From: Prevotellaceae bacterium
Lineage (GTDB): Bacteria; Bacteroidota; Bacteroidia; Bacteroidales; UBA932
Assembly: GCA_031289415.1 (NCBI GenBank)
Contig: JAITPN010000094.1
Coordinates: forward strand, 1-64,000
Length of the DNA: 64,000 bases
Reading direction: 5' to 3'
The translations under genes were made by a program, and so were the position numbers. Shown one piece after another: positions 1-8,860 of the stretch. How positions within the stretch are numbered: the first letter of the stretch is position 1; every line of letters starts with the position of its first letter. Below the pieces are notes generated by a model, which worked only from the letters and a program-made list of their open reading frames with translations, was not told where the DNA came from and ran no database searches.

Positions 1-39
1 CGCTATGAGAGCCACAATAAAAGCAAATTTTTTACCCAT
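1..39 (-). CDS. N-terminal fragment of a secreted or membrane peptide/protein
   Basis: An ATG at 39 on the minus strand opens a frame that runs off the left edge. The 13 visible residues (MGKKFAFIVALIA) are a lysine-rich start followed by a hydrophobic stretch, as in a signal peptide or in the leader of small Bacteroidota export peptides. A TATATTTG box on the minus strand at 55-62 could be its promoter -7 element. It is divergent from the peptide-export genes to the right, so a link is possible, but too little is visible to name the gene. Confidence 0.35.
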   Translation of the reverse strand, partial: MGKKFAFIVALIA

Positions 40-179
40 AAACTTAAAATAGTGCAAATATAATAAAAATCAGTGTATTATATTATTTTTATCATCATTT
101 TTGTCCATTAAGCCAAAAAATACAAGATTTCGGACAGAAAAAATTTACGAATTATGGTATATCTGCTACGCCATATCCC

Positions 180-989
180 TTGTATAAATATGAACAATCT
201 GTGTTTAAGCAATCTGATTTTGATGAATACTATATTTTCGTCAATCCTTACCACAAAATATTTACAAGCAAATATTTTTGGACAAATATTCTTTTCGCCG
301 CAACCACAGAAAACATAGAAAAAGCCAGACCTCATCAATGTATTTATATACAATATTTAGACCTAAATTATTTTTCATATAACTCACTAATGTTTAGCGT
401 TAAATTGTTATATTTTTTTGAAAAATTAAAATCAAAAGAACACAAAATAAAAGAATTTATCAAACAAAGCGAGAAAAGGGAAGATAATACATATTGGAAG
501 ATGATAAAACATCTTGCGACATATGGGTTGGTTTATTTTTCAAAATCGAAAGCCGATTTTATTACACAAGGATCATCAGAAGCATATAGGCAAATGAGAA
601 ATTCAAAAAAACAAATAAGTATATGTCTCAATGATATTTTAATATTTTACAACATTAAAGCTAATGAAAAATTGGTTGCAAAATATGATACACGTAAAAG
701 AGGTGTTTCATTGCAAGACTTTATGGAATTACTACAGAAAATAGGGTTTCAAACAAGGATAGGGCGCATGATATGGGAAAATATAGGCAATGTGCCGTTG
801 CCTGCCGTGGCGCTTTTGAGAATATCTGAAGAGGCGAATATGTATGTAGTGGTTAAAAACATATCGCCTACCGCCATTACATTTTTTAATCCCGAAATCA
901 AAGAAGACGAAACTTACGATAAAACCTCGTTTTTAAACGCATGGGATGGTGTATTGATAGCGTTGTTACCTGATACGAACGAATCATAA
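180..989 (+). CDS. C39-peptidase-like protein lacking the catalytic residues
   Basis: The C-terminal ~115 residues follow the second half of the C39 peptidase domain of the next gene: KRGVSLQDFMELLQKIGFQT matches its REGVSMLGISDAAESIGFRT, and NVPLP and FLNAWDG match NIPLP and FLECWTG. The catalytic positions are gone. No DCGPTC cysteine motif exists, the histidine position is Met (about residue 221, NMYVVV) and the aspartate position is Asn (about 237, FFNPE). The N-terminal ~130 residues are unrecognised. The stop lies one base before the ATG of the exporter, so the two are very likely co-translated. A role in holding or presenting a peptide substrate is inference. The start is uncertain: the frame is open from about 48 with no ATG, and position 180 is a TTG. 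Strongly AT-rich. Confidence 0.7.
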   Translation: MYKYEQSVFKQSDFDEYYIFVNPYHKIFTSKYFWTNILFAATTENIEKARPHQCIYIQYLDLNYFSYNSLMFSVKLLYFFEKLKSKEHKIKEFIKQSEKREDNTYWKMIKHLATYGLVYFSKSKADFITQGSSEAYRQMRNSKKQISICLNDILIFYNIKANEKLVAKYDTRKRGVSLQDFMELLQKIGFQTRIGRMIWENIGNVPLPAVALLRISEEANMYVVVKNISPTAITFFNPEIKEDETYDKTSFLNAWDGVLIALLPDTNES

Positions 990-990
990 T

Positions 991-3198
991 ATGCGTTCCT
1001 TTCCCTTATATACGCAGCTTGATGCCATGGACTGCGGACCTACTTGTCTGCGTATGATTGCCAAATACTATGGACACAATTATACATTACAAAGTCTACG
1101 AGAACAATGTTTCATCACTCGCGAAGGCGTTAGTATGCTAGGAATCAGCGATGCTGCCGAAAGCATAGGATTTCGTACCAGTGGCGTATGCATTACCTTT
1201 GAGCAATTTGTAAGAAATATTCCACTACCATGTATTTTACATTGGAATCAAAACCATTTTGTAGTATGCTATGGCATAAGAAAACGCCGAAAAGGCAAAT
1301 ATATCATAAAGATTGCCGATCCGTCGGGTGAAAAATACAAGATGGATAAAAAGGATTTTTTAGAATGCTGGACTGGCACAAAATCAAATGAAAAAAAAAC
1401 TGGTAATGCTTTACTTTTGGATCCATCACCCGATTTTTATTCATACGAAGACGATACAAATAAGCAACAAAAACATTTGAGTTATTATTTTCGTTATCTG
1501 CTACCCTATAAATCACAGTTTATACAAATAACACTTGGTATGTTTATAGGCAGTATCCTGTCGCTTATATTCCCATTTTTAGCACAAGCAGTAGTTGATC
1601 AAGGCATCGGCAATCAAAATTTAAATTTCATCACACTTGTTCTTATTGCACAAATGATTCTGACCATCACTGGTACTGCAATGGGCTTCATTCAATCATG
1701 GCTTTCACTGCATACAAGCACTCGTATAAGCATTTCGTTAATAGCTGATTTTATCACTAAATTAACCAAATTGCCTCTACGTTTTTTTGATACTAAAAAT
1801 ATTGGTGATATTTTGCAGAGAATCGGAGACCATAATAGAATTCAGAGCTTTATGACTAACGTATCGTTATCGTCTTTATTATCTTTCTTGAACTTTTTTA
1901 TTTTTGCTGGTATTTTAGCATATTATGAAGTTACTATTTTGACAATATTTCTTACGGGTAATGCACTCAATATAGCATGGATATTATTCTTTTTACGCTA
2001 TCGTCGTAAATTAGACCATCGTCGTTTCGCCCAAGCATCTGCGAACCAAAGCAATCTCGTACAATTGGTCACAGGGATGCAAGAAATAAAACTAAATAAT
2101 TACGAAAAGCAGCAACGGTGGAAATGGGAACGTATTCAGGCAAAGCTATTTAAAATCAGTATTAAAAGCGTATCATTGGGACAGTATCAACAAATAGGTT
2201 CTACATTCTTGGGGGGTATCACCTCTCTGTTAGTATCCTTTCTTTCCGCAAAAGCCGTTGTAGAAGGTGAAATCACATTAGGCATGATGATGTCAGTCAG
2301 CTATATCATCGGGCAATTATCTGGTCCCATCGGACAAATAATAAATATTGCACAATCATTTCAGGACGCAAAAATTAGTTTGGAACGACTCAACGAAATT
2401 CATAATAAAGAAGACGAGGATAATATCTTGACAAATAAAATTATGGAGCTTCCTAATAATAAGACAATTAATGTTCAAAATATTTATTTTACATATGACG
2501 GCGCTGAACGCGATTATGTGCTGAATAACGTAACGTTCACTATTCCTCAAAACAAAATTACCGCGATAGTAGGTGCTAGTGGAAGCGGAAAAACCACATT
2601 AATGAAACTTCTCATGGGTTTTTATCAACCTCTAAAAGGTGATATTCATGTGAATAACTTTCGTCTTGATGAAATCAATCCTCACTTGTGGCGACAACAT
2701 AGTGGTGCAGTCATGCAAGATGGTTTTATTTTTTCTGATACCATCTCTAATAATATTACCGTAGGAGATGAACAGCCCGACAAAAAACGCCTCTTACGCT
2801 CCGTAAAAACTGCTAATATTAAAGATTTTATAGAATCATTGCCTTTGAAATATAATACAAAAATAGGCATGGATGGCAACGGACTCAGTCAAGGGCAGAA
2901 GCAACGCATTCTCATTGCCCGCGCGGTGTATAAAAATCCGTCGTTCCTGTTTTTTGACGAAGCTACCAATGCCCTCGACGCCAACAATGAACGAATGATC
3001 ATGGAAAACCTTGAACAGTTTTTTGAAGGTAGAACAGTGGTGGTGGTCGCTCACCGCCTCAGTACCGTAAAAAATGCAGATCAAATTGTGGTGCTCAACA
3101 AAGGAAAAATCACCGAAACCGGTACGCATAATGAACTGACAGCGCTGCGGGGCGAATATTATGAATTAGTAAAAAATCAATTGGAACTTGGAAATTAA
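991..3198 (+). CDS. Peptidase C39 domain ABC exporter (peptide/bacteriocin type)
   Basis: An inner-membrane ABC exporter that cleaves a leader peptide and exports the mature peptide. In order it has an N-terminal C39 protease domain with Cys15 (DCGPTC), His89 (NHFVV) and Asp110 (IADP), a transmembrane region at about 165-440, and a nucleotide-binding domain. The last shows Walker A GASGSGKTT near 527, signature LSQGQKQR near 632, Walker B FLFFDEATNALD near 652 and H-loop VAHRLS near 687. The length of 735 aa is normal for the SunT/NHLM-like class. It follows the C39-like gene by one base and precedes an HlyD-type adaptor by 24 bases. No precursor peptide with a double-glycine leader is visible to the right; the only candidate is the truncated ORF at the left edge. 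Confidence 0.93.
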   Translation: MRSFPLYTQLDAMDCGPTCLRMIAKYYGHNYTLQSLREQCFITREGVSMLGISDAAESIGFRTSGVCITFEQFVRNIPLPCILHWNQNHFVVCYGIRKRRKGKYIIKIADPSGEKYKMDKKDFLECWTGTKSNEKKTGNALLLDPSPDFYSYEDDTNKQQKHLSYYFRYLLPYKSQFIQITLGMFIGSILSLIFPFLAQAVVDQGIGNQNLNFITLVLIAQMILTITGTAMGFIQSWLSLHTSTRISISLIADFITKLTKLPLRFFDTKNIGDILQRIGDHNRIQSFMTNVSLSSLLSFLNFFIFAGILAYYEVTILTIFLTGNALNIAWILFFLRYRRKLDHRRFAQASANQSNLVQLVTGMQEIKLNNYEKQQRWKWERIQAKLFKISIKSVSLGQYQQIGSTFLGGITSLLVSFLSAKAVVEGEITLGMMMSVSYIIGQLSGPIGQIINIAQSFQDAKISLERLNEIHNKEDEDNILTNKIMELPNNKTINVQNIYFTYDGAERDYVLNNVTFTIPQNKITAIVGASGSGKTTLMKLLMGFYQPLKGDIHVNNFRLDEINPHLWRQHSGAVMQDGFIFSDTISNNITVGDEQPDKKRLLRSVKTANIKDFIESLPLKYNTKIGMDGNGLSQGQKQRILIARAVYKNPSFLFFDEATNALDANNERMIMENLEQFFEGRTVVVVAHRLSTVKNADQIVVLNKGKITETGTHNELTALRGEYYELVKNQLELGN

Positions 3199-3222
3199 AA
3201 GCATGGGTAAACTGTAAAATTT

Positions 3223-4536
3223 GTGGAAAAAGAAGAAATAAAAAATATAGAGATTCGTTCGGAAGAAGTGCAGGAAATACTCGGACGCCCGCCGCGGTGG
3301 CTCATCAGGTGGGGCATTACGGTAATTTTTGTAATTATAGCGGGGTTGTTTACAGGCAGTTTTTTCTTCCGCTATCCCGATATTATTGCTGCCCCCATCG
3401 TAATCACTACCGAAAATTTGCCGGTGAATATCGTAGCAAAAATCACAGGACGCATCGACACGTTGTTGGTACAGGAAAAACAGCAGGTAATAAAAAATCA
3501 ATTACTGGCAGTGGTTGAAAATCCGGCGTCTTTTGCCGACATTTCAGCCTTGATGGAATCATTGCATCGTTATCCGCCTGCTGTGTCCGACAGCATCACG
3601 GCAGTATTGCCATGGTCGGCAAGCCTGCAATTAGGCAATGTGCAAAACAGCTACAACAATTTTCTGAAAACCTGCGAAGACTATCGTTATTTTTTACAAA
3701 CCGGTTATCACCAGAAAAAAATCAAGGTTATCGAAAAGCAAATTGCCGTGCAGCAAAATATACTGGCACAAACCCAACGGCAAATTTCGCTAATGAACGA
3801 ACAACTCCTGATTGCCGAAAAACTATTTTATATCGACTCGCTGCAAGCCGCCCAAAAATTAGTAGCTTCCATCGAATACGATAAGGCTAAAAGCGTATAT
3901 CTGCAAAACCGGCAGGCGTATGAAACCGCACAAACCAACCTCGAAAACCAAAAAATGAACATCCTGCAATCGGAACAAACTATTTTTGATTTGACACAAC
4001 AACAGATGGAACAGCGCTCCCAGTTGCGTATGGCGCTTATCACCACTTACGACCAATTGCAGTCGGAACTTAAATTGTGGGAGCAAACCTACTTGTTTCG
4101 CACTCCTGTTGCAGGCGTCGTAACGTTTACCAAATTCCGGCAAAACAACCAACATCTGGAAGCAGGCGAAATTATTCTGACCGTTATTCCCGACAATGCC
4201 GCACATATTACCGGAAAAATCTATCTGCCGCCGCAAGGAGCAGGAAAAGTAAAAGCAGGGCAAACAGTTAATGTGAAATTCGACAATTTCCCATATATGG
4301 AATACGGCATGGTGAAAGTAACCATTAAACATATAGCGCTGGTACCTATGATAGAAAAAGACGGACGTACGTATGTACTGGAAGTGGATTTTCCGTACGA
4401 CCTTACTACCACGTATGGCAAAAAACTCACGTTCAGCCAAGAAATGCAGGGCGTTGCTGAAATCATTACCGACGACCTCCGCCTCTCCGACCGTTTTTTA
4501 AACCCTATCAAGGCATTATTAAAAAAAGGGTTGTAG
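3223..4536 (+). CDS. HlyD-family periplasmic adaptor (membrane fusion protein)
   Basis: This is the adaptor that links a C39 ABC exporter to an outer-membrane channel. A cytoplasmic N-terminus of ~27 residues is followed by one membrane segment (about 28-48), a biotinyl-lipoyl-like strand (PVNIVAKITGRIDTLLV), a long Gln/Lys-rich helical hairpin (about 150-270) and a second lipoyl/beta-barrel part (FRTPVAGVVTF, then GQTVNVKFD). The start is GTG at 3223; an ATG at 3203 is out of frame and closes after four codons. Its length and place behind the exporter fit a type I-like peptide secretion pair. No TolC-like gene is present in the window. Confidence 0.9.
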   Translation: MEKEEIKNIEIRSEEVQEILGRPPRWLIRWGITVIFVIIAGLFTGSFFFRYPDIIAAPIVITTENLPVNIVAKITGRIDTLLVQEKQQVIKNQLLAVVENPASFADISALMESLHRYPPAVSDSITAVLPWSASLQLGNVQNSYNNFLKTCEDYRYFLQTGYHQKKIKVIEKQIAVQQNILAQTQRQISLMNEQLLIAEKLFYIDSLQAAQKLVASIEYDKAKSVYLQNRQAYETAQTNLENQKMNILQSEQTIFDLTQQQMEQRSQLRMALITTYDQLQSELKLWEQTYLFRTPVAGVVTFTKFRQNNQHLEAGEIILTVIPDNAAHITGKIYLPPQGAGKVKAGQTVNVKFDNFPYMEYGMVKVTIKHIALVPMIEKDGRTYVLEVDFPYDLTTTYGKKLTFSQEMQGVAEIITDDLRLSDRFLNPIKALLKKGL

Positions 4537-4562
4537 CGTAAGTGAATATCCCATATTTTTTG

Positions 4563-4570
4563 TAAATTTG
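4563..4570 (+). promoter_or_regulatory. Bacteroidota -7 promoter box for the S41 peptidase
   Basis: TAAATTTG matches TAnnTTTG and lies 42 bases before the ATG at 4613. No TTG is found at the usual ~20-base spacing upstream, so only the -7 half is supported. Confidence 0.45.
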
Positions 4571-4612
4571 CATGTATTAAGAAACGACAGATTTATTTTA
4601 ACCCATTGTAAT

Positions 4613-6046
4613 ATGAAAAAAATATTTATAACAGGAATAGCATTGTGGATGACAGTGCTGATATGCTTTGGCAATACGCCTAATGACAAGACACAATCGC
4701 TCACCAAGCAGGAAAAAGTGTATGCCCTATCGGTGTTGTGGAAAGAATTGCACTACAATTTTGCTTTCCCCGAACGATTGCAGCAAGTAAATATTGACAG
4801 TCTGTATTTAGCATATATTCCAAAGATAGAGCAAGCGGAAAATTATGATTATTATCGTACGCTGCAAGCATTTCTATCTCATTTCAATGACGGACATACA
4901 ACGCTTTTTGATCATCTCGGACGGGACTTTTCACAGTATGATGTTCCCAAATTGAGCGTGCAAGTTTTTGGTGAAAAAATCATCATAGAGAATATGGCTG
5001 AAAGTATGGCTGACAAACTACCGATAGGAAGTGAAATTACCCACATCCAACATATTCCTGTAGCGGAATACATGAGAGACTCCATATTTCCCTACATTGC
5101 TGCCGCTCCTAATAATAAACTTTCCTTTGGAGCATGGGTTGTTTTATTCGGAAAGCCAAATTCACTATTACACATCACGGTAAAAACAATAGAAGGTACT
5201 CAATCGGAGGCTCAATTGATACGTAATATTTGGGCTACTGAAGAAGAAAAAAGAGAAAAATGGGCACACCCATTTAACTCTAATTCTAATGACTATTTGC
5301 CCATAAATATCGAAATTAAACAAGAAAACATCGGCTACATACAACTAAATACTTTTGCTCCGGCATCGGTGATTGATACCATTAATGCGGTATTTGACCA
5401 AATGTTGCCCCAATTACGACAATGCAAGGGTTTAATTATAGACATCCGTAATAATGGAGGCGGCAGCGAACGCGCGTGGTTTAATATAGTCCATCATTTA
5501 GTACTGACTGATACCTTTACGGAAGGAGTAAGTTTTGCCCGTGAACACAGTGCCGAACGTAAAGCGAAAGGGCAGGCTTGCGATTCTATACTTATGAAAT
5601 TGATTGGCGCTACTTTTCACGATACGCCGTATGTCGACTACTATAAAGGAACTGTAATGAACGAAACTTTTTCTTACTCCTTTTCCAATCCTGTGCCCGA
5701 TTCTTTAAAATTACGCCAACCGTTGGTGATTTTATCCGGCTCCGGCGTAGCGTCTGCCGCCGAAGGGTTTTTATTAGTTATGAAAGAAGCCAAACGAGGT
5801 ATTATCATGGGAGAACCCTCGAAGAATAGTTTTGGACAGCCCCTGTTTATACAATTGCCCGGAGATGTGGTGGCTATGATTAATGCCTCACACATAAAAT
5901 CGGTGGACGGCACGGATTTCAGCCAAACCGGTATTCCGCCCGATATTACAGTGCCAATGGATGTAAAAGCCTATTTGGAGGGGCGGGACAATGTGTTGGA
6001 GCGGGCAATAGAAGAGTTGCAAAAAATGATAAAACAGAAAAAATAA
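4613..6046 (+). CDS. S41-family (tail-specific type) periplasmic peptidase
   Basis: The start at ATG 4613 gives a clean signal peptide (MKKIFITGIALWMTVLICFG); an upstream TTG start would add 15 unlikely residues. The N-terminal part holds a helical domain with the HFNDGHTTL motif typical of S41 peptidases, followed by a PDZ-like region. The C-terminal catalytic core contains LIIDIRNNGGGSERAW and the nucleophile motif ILSGSGVASAAEGF, with a later EPSKNSFGQP segment where the general-base lysine is expected. It is probably exported to the periplasm or anchored at the cell surface. It lies behind the peptide-export genes but has its own promoter box, so a role in peptide processing is only a possibility. 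Confidence 0.85.
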   Translation: MKKIFITGIALWMTVLICFGNTPNDKTQSLTKQEKVYALSVLWKELHYNFAFPERLQQVNIDSLYLAYIPKIEQAENYDYYRTLQAFLSHFNDGHTTLFDHLGRDFSQYDVPKLSVQVFGEKIIIENMAESMADKLPIGSEITHIQHIPVAEYMRDSIFPYIAAAPNNKLSFGAWVVLFGKPNSLLHITVKTIEGTQSEAQLIRNIWATEEEKREKWAHPFNSNSNDYLPINIEIKQENIGYIQLNTFAPASVIDTINAVFDQMLPQLRQCKGLIIDIRNNGGGSERAWFNIVHHLVLTDTFTEGVSFAREHSAERKAKGQACDSILMKLIGATFHDTPYVDYYKGTVMNETFSYSFSNPVPDSLKLRQPLVILSGSGVASAAEGFLLVMKEAKRGIIMGEPSKNSFGQPLFIQLPGDVVAMINASHIKSVDGTDFSQTGIPPDITVPMDVKAYLEGRDNVLERAIEELQKMIKQKK

Positions 6047-6063
6047 GGTTTCCTGCGCCCGCC

Positions 6064-7014
6064 TTATTCCACCTTCCCCCTGCACAATTTCCCCTGCCAC
6101 GTACCCCGCTCTTCCAGACGGCGGTCGAGCAGCCGCAACAATTCTACGTTGCGCAATTTACCCCACGACATGGTTTCCAGAAAGCGCGGCGGCACTTCGT
6201 TCACGAAGCGTTCTATGACGATGTCGGGAGACAGCCGTTCCAGAAAGTCCACAAAAAAATCAATGTACGCCTCAAGCGTAAAGGATACAAAACGTTCGGG
6301 ATATGTTTTATATTCACCCTCCATCGCCGTACCTTTCACCATCTGCAACTGGTGGAATTTCACCGACGTCAGCGGCAATGCCGAAATCAACGCCGCTTCA
6401 GCCAGCATATCGTCACGCGTTTCATACGGCAACCCGAAAATAAAATGTGCGCCGGTGCGTATCTTCCGTTTCGCCGTTTCTTCCACCGCCCAACGCGCTT
6501 CGGCAAAAGTATGCCGGCGGTTGATATGCGCCAACGTACGGTCGTAACACGACTCAATGCCGTATTCAATTTGCACGAAATGCGTGTCTGCCAGCGATGC
6601 CAAATAATCCAATTTCGCGCTGTCCACACAATCGGGGCGCGTGCTCACCACAATGCCTTCCACCTGCGGAAAGCGCAACGCCTCGCCGTAAAGCGCCTTC
6701 AGCTTTTCCAGCGGCGCATACGTATTGGAATACGATTGAAAATACGCCAAAAAACGGCGGGCATTGCGATAGCGCCCCCGATGAAACTCAATACCCTCTT
6801 CCAACTGCTGCGTAATGCTCTTTTGCGGATTGCAATACGACGGCGTAAACGCACGGTTGTCGCAATACGAACAACCGCCCTGCGCCTTACTGCCGTCGCG
6901 GTTCGGACATGTGAATCCCGCATCAATGGTTACTTTCTGTATGCGTTCTCCGAAATGCTGCCTGATGTAACCAATGTATGAATTGTAGCGTTGACGCGGC
7001 TCAAGCGCCGACAA
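6064..7014 (-). CDS. YhcC-like radical SAM protein (TIGR01212 family)
   Basis: The N-terminal region has the iron-sulfur motif of this subfamily, CPNRDGSKAQGGCSYC: a first cysteine, an 11-residue loop, then CxxC. Further on, FQSYSNTY, VSTRPDC, IEYGIES and HFIFGLPYET are typical of the radical SAM barrel. The molecular function of the family is not settled. No ATG is available. The frame opens at a TTG at 7062 inside fabD, while a TTG at 7014, just after the fabD stop, puts ~34 residues before the first motif cysteine, as in E. coli YhcC, and is preferred. It is probably co-transcribed with fabD. Confidence 0.85.
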   Translation of the reverse strand: MSALEPRQRYNSYIGYIRQHFGERIQKVTIDAGFTCPNRDGSKAQGGCSYCDNRAFTPSYCNPQKSITQQLEEGIEFHRGRYRNARRFLAYFQSYSNTYAPLEKLKALYGEALRFPQVEGIVVSTRPDCVDSAKLDYLASLADTHFVQIEYGIESCYDRTLAHINRRHTFAEARWAVEETAKRKIRTGAHFIFGLPYETRDDMLAEAALISALPLTSVKFHQLQMVKGTAMEGEYKTYPERFVSFTLEAYIDFFVDFLERLSPDIVIERFVNEVPPRFLETMSWGKLRNVELLRLLDRRLEERGTWQGKLCRGKVE

Positions 7015-8149: not shown

Positions 8150-8860
8150 TTACTCCAGCACCTCATACGCCACCCCCTCCAAGTAGTACGTCGAATAATA
8201 ATCCTTGCCGTGCGCCTTCATCCACTGCTGCATCTTGGAGATGCTGGACAACTCGGCGGCGCAGGTCTCTTCGTGCCCCTCCTTACCTAACCGCTGCTGC
8301 ACGCCGGCTGCCAGATTGCCGATTTCCGCCTGCGTGAGGCGGCGTTCCCTCAACACGCCGGTTACCGACACCTGCGCACCCGTCAACTCGCGGTTGAAGC
8401 CGCCGAGGTCGCCCTTGGCGTCCACGCGGACGGAATACAGCCGCTTGTCGCCCGTCAGGAAACAATGCCTGCCGGAATGTTTGCAGACGTGCGTTACGAC
8501 GCCGTAGACGGTGATGGATTTACCCACATACGCATCGGCTACCGACAGCAACGTGTCCACGTTATACCCCGCCGTCGGGGAGTCCCCCCGCGTCATGGGG
8601 GAGCTCCCCGACGTCATGGGGGAGTTCCCCCGCGTCATGGGGGAGTTCCCCCGCGCCATGGGGGAGTTCCCCCGCGTCATGGGGGAGTTCCCCGACGCCA
8701 TGGGGGAGTTCCCCCGCGCCATGGGGGAACTCCCCGACGTCATGGGGGAGTCCCCCCGCGTCATGGGGGAATCCCCCGACGGCATGGGGGAGAGTCCTGC
8801 TGCCATTTCGGACATCGCGCATAGCGATAATACGGTTAAAAATGTAAGGAATGTTTTCAT
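8150..8860 (-). CDS. Exported OB-fold-like protein with a 7-residue repeat linker
   Basis: An N-terminal signal peptide (MKTFLTFLTVLSLCAM) is followed by about ten copies of a 7-residue repeat of the form SPMTRGN (about residues 24-95), and then a ~140-residue domain. That domain (VGKSITVYGVVTHVCKHSGR, LYSVRV, GAQVSVTGVLRE) looks like a small OB-fold of the kind found in exported Bacteroidota proteins; this assignment is from pattern only. The repeat is encoded by a 21-bp DNA array whose other frames are also open, so the repeat peptide may be a by-product of DNA expansion. It is the last gene of the TonB/ABC operon. Substrate or partner is unknown. Confidence 0.7.
   Translation of the reverse strand: MKTFLTFLTVLSLCAMSEMAAGLSPMPSGDSPMTRGDSPMTSGSSPMARGNSPMASGNSPMTRGNSPMARGNSPMTRGNSPMTSGSSPMTRGDSPTAGYNVDTLLSVADAYVGKSITVYGVVTHVCKHSGRHCFLTGDKRLYSVRVDAKGDLGGFNRELTGAQVSVTGVLRERRLTQAEIGNLAAGVQQRLGKEGHEETCAAELSSISKMQQWMKAHGKDYYSTYYLEGVAYEVLE
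8576..8806. repeat. 21-bp tandem array A, ten full units plus one degenerate
   Basis: Ten units (8576-8785) of the type GGGGGAGTTCCCCCGCGTCAT are followed by a degenerate one. Each unit carries a dyad, GGGGGA nn TCCCCC in the commonest version, then CGCGTCAT or GACGTCAT. Variation among units is at the dyad centre and at CGCG/GACG. The array lies inside the coding region between signal peptide and OB-fold-like domain. Confidence 0.95.

Follow-up and report, generated by a model that had tools for sequence, protein, structure and literature searches.

A C39-like protein without catalytic residues encoded one base ahead of a C39 exporter in a Prevotellaceae bacterium, and recurrent non-cutting C39 proteins beside related exporters

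We confirmed that the gene directly upstream of a peptidase-containing exporter, in the 64,000-nucleotide stretch of Prevotellaceae DNA analysed here (the window), encodes a genuine C39 homologue that has lost all of its catalytic residues (Table 1). The pair is a singleton. Non-cutting C39 proteins that are separate from the exporter polypeptide nevertheless recur beside this exporter type in Bacteroidota, and we regard that recurrence as a more valuable result than the singleton pair.

Table 1. Features at the left end of the window, in window positions
Feature	Position	Strand	Basis or remark
Right-hand end of multi-copy insertion sequence	1..114	.	Terminal repeat 86-114 (inverse of GGCTTAATGGACAAAAATGATGATAAAAA)
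Target-site duplication AAAAAATAC	115..123	.	On contig C86 the left flank ends in these 9 bases, just before the left end of the insertion sequence
Window-side remainder of rhamnosyltransferase-like frame (position mod 3 = 1)	124..318	+	Stop 316-318; gene interrupted by the insertion sequence on contig C86
ORF of dead C39-like protein	180..989	+	269 aa if read from TTG; true start probably ATG 390 (199 aa)
N-terminal helical segment, residues 71-144	390..611	+	AF2 helices, low to fair confidence
C39-like domain without catalytic residues (Gln145, Met221, Asn237)	612..974	+	PF03412, alignment, fold match
C39 peptidase-containing ABC exporter (PCAT), 735 aa	991..3198	+	PF03412, PF00664, PF00005
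HlyD-type periplasmic adaptor, 437 aa	3223..4536	+	PF13437 E=1.4e-12, TIGR01843 E=1.2e-21
S41 family peptidase, 492 aa; may be the last of the unit	4568..6046	+	PF03572 E=1.9e-24

The original prediction, made from the letters alone, held that the upstream protein aligns with C39 but has no cysteine motif and carries Met and Asn in place of the catalytic His and Asp, and it proposed a profile search of residues ~140-265. That search agreed with it: hmmscan placed PF03412 (Peptidase_C39) on residues 147-264 with E=4.5e-12 and 46.4 bits, above the curated cutoff of 22 bits for membership of the fold. In a 21-row alignment Gln145 occupies the column of the exporter's Cys15, Met221 stands at the position of His89 and Asn237 at that of Asp110, the last by pairing FFNPE with IADPS, where automatic MAFFT instead puts Pro238, one column off. 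As the oxyanion Gln is missing too, none of the four residues of an active C39 peptidase (Cys, His, Asp and oxyanion Gln) is present, and the protein has the makeup of a C39-like domain, a C39 fold without the nucleophilic Cys. The losses are not noise, because 126 aligned exporters from related loci show no substitution at Gln, Cys, His or Asp, only gaps. The core conserved residues of the domain are retained, and AlphaFold, given the 21-row alignment, modelled it with pLDDT mostly 74-98 and >90 over most of residues 190-260. Foldseek against the PDB matched the model to the PCAT1 peptidase (6v9z, E=9e-7) and the C39-like domain of HlyB (3zua, E=2e-6), and also to ComA and LahT. The C39 rows in the input alignment aid the predicted fold, whereas the PF03412 sequence match is independent of it. 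A search of the whole genome for PF03412 gave two hits only, this protein and its exporter, and the E-value, the fold and the whole-genome search together exclude a chance resemblance to C39. The ORF contains no stop and no frameshift, the frame as a whole being open for 313 codons at 31% GC, and over the C39 part the strongest codon signal lies in this frame (z=5.4). The genes are one base apart, as had been noticed at the outset: TAA at 987-989 is followed by a single base and then the exporter ATG.

The exporter is ordinary by comparison. Cys15, His89 and Asp110 had been reported for it and were all found, together with Gln9; its residues 4-130 match PF03412 at 4e-34, and Walker A (528), LSQGQ (632) and Walker B (652) follow. 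It thus combines an intact C39 triad with the transmembrane and nucleotide-binding domains of a peptidase-containing ABC transporter. Its relatives in other Bacteroidales, many of them Dysgonomonadaceae, are 71-72% identical, and S41 homologues also occur near some other exporters (e.g., at locus L058). Further along the window, a protein encoded on the minus strand at 8150-8860 carries near-identical SPM(T/A)xG(D/N/S) repeats in succession close to its N-terminus.

The window starts at the end of a contig, inside an insertion sequence (IS). Positions 1-114 equal positions 5-118 of contig C47 of the same genome at 100% identity and diverge exactly after 114; the other end of the element, with the inverse terminal sequence, starts it at seven other contig ends, which identifies a multi-copy IS. 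The assembly is broken by this IS at window 1-114 and at contigs C86, C79, C55, C26, C16, C61, C62, C47 and C36. A degenerate copy on C36 (9602-10660), if representative, puts the length of the IS at about 1.06 kb, and the target-site duplications are 8-9 bases long, C16 and C47 sharing eight much as the window and C86 share nine. Since the nine bases after the IS in the window equal the nine before it in C86, C86 is the probable left neighbour of the window. C55 was rejected in that place, having no target-site duplication in common with the window. On C86, the IS interrupts the 3' end of a rhamnosyltransferase-like gene (L289:14967-15842), the C86 part of which scores 98.9 bits against TIGR01556 over profile positions 1-277 of 281; a lysS-like gene precedes it. 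We rejected the idea that the insertion truncated the first gene, because its frame meets a stop shortly upstream and has no start codon before TTG 180, even with the pre-insertion sequence included.

The start of the first protein is less certain than its C39 part. The first in-frame ATG, at 390, corresponds to M71, and the first 46 codons (138 bases) of the ORF are overlapped by the glycosyltransferase frame. Codon statistics over 180-321 gave z=3.3 in the frame of the first gene against 2.1 in the glycosyltransferase frame, which does not by itself settle the start. AlphaFold gave residues 1-71 a pLDDT <50 and built residues 72-140 as helices of low to fair confidence. Since residues 1-71 are unmodelled and the ORF would otherwise overlap the other gene, we favour ATG 390, which gives a probable length of about 199 aa for the real protein. 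The original prediction had described an unfamiliar N-terminal part of ~130 residues; a helical segment without relatives in Pfam, NCBIfam or phmmer searches does exist, but about half of the proposed part is probably an artefact and ~70 residues are likelier. Kinship of this segment with the N-terminal domain of the radical-SAM maturase family found next to the stand-alone C39-like protein of locus L120 was rejected, as it scored 2.1 bits against a 16-member profile, several shuffled sequences scored higher and hhalign gave a probability of 0.4%. Partial matches to it in genomes G039 and G830 were due to chance, the matched proteins being RecF-like.

It had been suggested that recurrence of the pair in other Bacteroidota be checked, and here the outcome was negative. 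We searched about 1,190 Bacteroidota genomes whole (399 from the family, 393 from the order and 395 from the class) and found no relative of the first protein with the same N-terminal segment; scans of genome contigs, viral contigs and plasmids gave no relative either, and the confirmed hits were C39 domains of other proteins. None of the 40 family loci and 80 named loci that we read has the first gene upstream of the exporter. Occurrence in this genome only, with frameshifts in the first gene, had been named as evidence against the prediction; the first half holds, but the gene has no frameshift. Because no orthologue was found, there is no way to show that the pair, or a binding surface on the protein, is conserved.

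Many of those loci are RiPP regions that carry genes of the LanB-like, LanC-like and radical-SAM kinds as well as double-glycine (GG) precursors. An iterated profile search brought up other C39-like proteins outside ABC transporters, in 15 of the 80 named loci (9 of the 31 longer than 18 kb) and also at L060, L219 and L261. By length, position and profile match, 14 of the 15 hits in the named loci are of a C39-VKOR-thioredoxin type, although one is a fragment and one is cut by a contig end, and the domains were checked with Pfam at L060 and L122 only; all 14 are codirectional with the exporter. The type, without the triad and codirectional with the exporter, was noted at L110, L119, L122, L124, L137, L141, L144, L150, L152, L156, L167, L175, L178 and L060. 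Its genes usually lie 2-9 kb upstream of the exporter, and downstream of it at L060. As recurrent accessories, these proteins merit a study of their own. Smaller forms exist as well: at L120, from Bacteroides sp. MO.1_1, the gene of a stand-alone protein of 134 aa is flanked by those of a radical-SAM enzyme and a GG precursor, and at L261 a protein of 146 aa follows LanC-like, LanB-like and glycosyltransferase-like genes, HlyD and the exporter being convergent. L219 has a 389-aa non-cutting C39 protein with hydrophobic segments. In the nucleophile column, all 17 C39-like proteins examined, counting that of the window, lack Cys. None of the dead C39 proteins elsewhere directly adjoins its exporter in the arrangement of the window, and none has the N-terminal segment. 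Short C39-only ORFs with an intact Cys motif at L228 (8350-8775 and 11284-11565), L149 (9992-10288) and L221 (4402-4824) were rejected as members of this set; they are apparently exporter fragments, which are a possible source of stand-alone C39 proteins.

In a tree of 47 rows, the VKOR-type C39 domains formed one clade (92/87) with L261 beside it, L120 and L219 paired (100/100) near the exporters, and the window protein stood alone on a long branch of 1.98 changes per site, the placement of which is unsure. The window protein scored 65.7 bits against the profile of the other exporter subfamily and 19.3 against that of its own. These placements, in at least three lineages, make at least three losses of C39 catalysis likely, and the window protein is no fresh tandem copy; from the tree and the profile scores we rejected a recent duplication of the C39 domain of its own exporter.

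No GG-leader precursor was recognised in window positions 1-6100 and no maturase near the exporter. The single TIGR04149 GG-leader precursor of the genome lies on contig C55, where genes for a CPBP protease and a DUF6734 protein come next. The unit spans L264:10739-13216, the protease being CPBP/Rce1-like and the DUF6734 gene running into the left end of an IS. Three SPASM proteins are encoded in the genome, none adjoining the precursor or the exporter, and LanC was not found in it. As the only C39 exporter found in the 93%-complete assembly, the window exporter is the natural candidate for the C55 peptide, which would probably be its orphan substrate.

We propose, as a reading that comes near to an even chance without reaching it, that the first protein is a C39-like domain in its own right, which binds GG leaders but does not cut them and serves the coupled exporter. 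The first gene would yield a cytoplasmic, separately made domain in which the nucleophile, His and Asp are lost while the fold that forms the groove, in LahT lying between helices 1-3 and the sheet, is kept. Such a domain may bind the double-glycine leader of the peptide substrate or substrates of the exporter without cleavage, and would then hold the precursor or pass it to the active C39 domain of the exporter; alternatively, it might shield the precursor until modification is complete. Leader binding, the partnership with the exporter and a protein that is made and useful are what we infer; the recurrence of dead C39 proteins beside these exporters makes a non-cutting, leader-binding helper role plausible, and a kept fold with a lost triad fits such a role. 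In its favour, we counted the homology, the triad loss, the C39 fold, the gene spacing, the recurrence of dead C39 domains and the C55 precursor, as well as a frame left uninterrupted despite a branch of about 2 changes per site. Against it, we counted that no orthologue, no dead C39 in the same arrangement and no precursor or maturase near the exporter were recognised.

A rival reading is decay. The first protein could be a functionless remnant of a former C39 protein or of an exporter fragment, open only through its recent age, and this stretch of the window may indeed be decaying, since the IS disrupts the gene next door. Restriction to one genome, the long branch and the uncertain start codon also point that way, but the open frame, the in-frame codon signal of the C39 part, the conserved core residues with a confident fold and a sequence not copied from its own exporter speak against a remnant, which we consider unlikely, if the most serious of the alternatives. 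Near these exporters, most of the dead C39 domains that recur belong to the VKOR-thioredoxin type, and the small ones at L120 and L261 sit among maturases, which would suit an accessory to peptide modification instead of export, docking the leader in an RRE-like manner for a modifying or disulfide-forming enzyme as in the VKOR-thioredoxin fusions. That role appears somewhat less probable still for the window protein, whose gene is coupled to the exporter itself in a stretch with no adjacent modifying enzyme and in a genome with no LanC. The last alternative is a decoy or regulator: the first gene would be translated immediately before the exporter, and its product, having the exporter's type of domain but no catalytic residues, might occupy leaders or the exporter's C39 domain and so limit premature cleavage or export; we hold this improbable, although sequence cannot tell it from the binding model.

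Toxin exporters are known to carry C39-like domains that lack catalysis and serve, as a built-in part of the exporter, to recruit the substrate. That of the type I secretion exporter HlyB recruits its substrate without cutting (PMC8277102, PMC6363468), and in LahT, leader residues -4, -7 and -12 are held in a groove about 20 A away from the active site (PMC6363468). Leader binding by the window protein would resemble the HlyB case in its C39 fold, the replaced nucleophile (Tyr in HlyB), the lack of cleavage and the place at an exporter. The HlyB domain, however, keeps its His where the window protein has Met, and it is the N-terminus of the exporter itself in place of a peptidase; the first protein is separate from an exporter that keeps an active C39 domain, and is therefore not the N-terminal domain of an RTX-protein ABC exporter. 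It shares the fold and groove-forming helices of the PCAT/AMS peptidase domains (PCAT1, LahT and ComA), of which the window exporter is an ordinary member, but has none of their active-site Gln, Cys, His and Asp. The C39-VKOR-thioredoxin proteins of Bacteroidota RiPP loci (e.g., L060 and L122) are likewise non-cutting, outside ABC transporters and near the same exporter type, but form a separate clade with fused domains that the first protein lacks. The proteins of L120 and L261 are also separate, triad-less C39-like domains, and their GG-peptide or lanthipeptide loci include a C39 exporter; they differ in having no common N-terminal segment, in belonging to other lineages and in not lying directly upstream of the exporter. 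A limited literature search found no description of separate dead C39 proteins in RiPP loci, which is not proof of novelty.

More broadly, and more tentatively than for the window protein itself, separate cutting-dead C39 domains may have arisen repeatedly as a general class of proteins that bind leaders, as an alternative to the RRE domain, and that work with exporters whose own C39 is active in the RiPP loci of Bacteroidota; the window protein would be one independent lineage. Their recurrence beside these exporters could serve as a marker for finding peptide loci. With a separate dead C39 protein beside an active-C39 exporter, leader recognition and leader cutting would fall to two different proteins, and the recurrence of stand-alone, membrane-linked and VKOR-fused forms makes this division testable in cultured Bacteroides.
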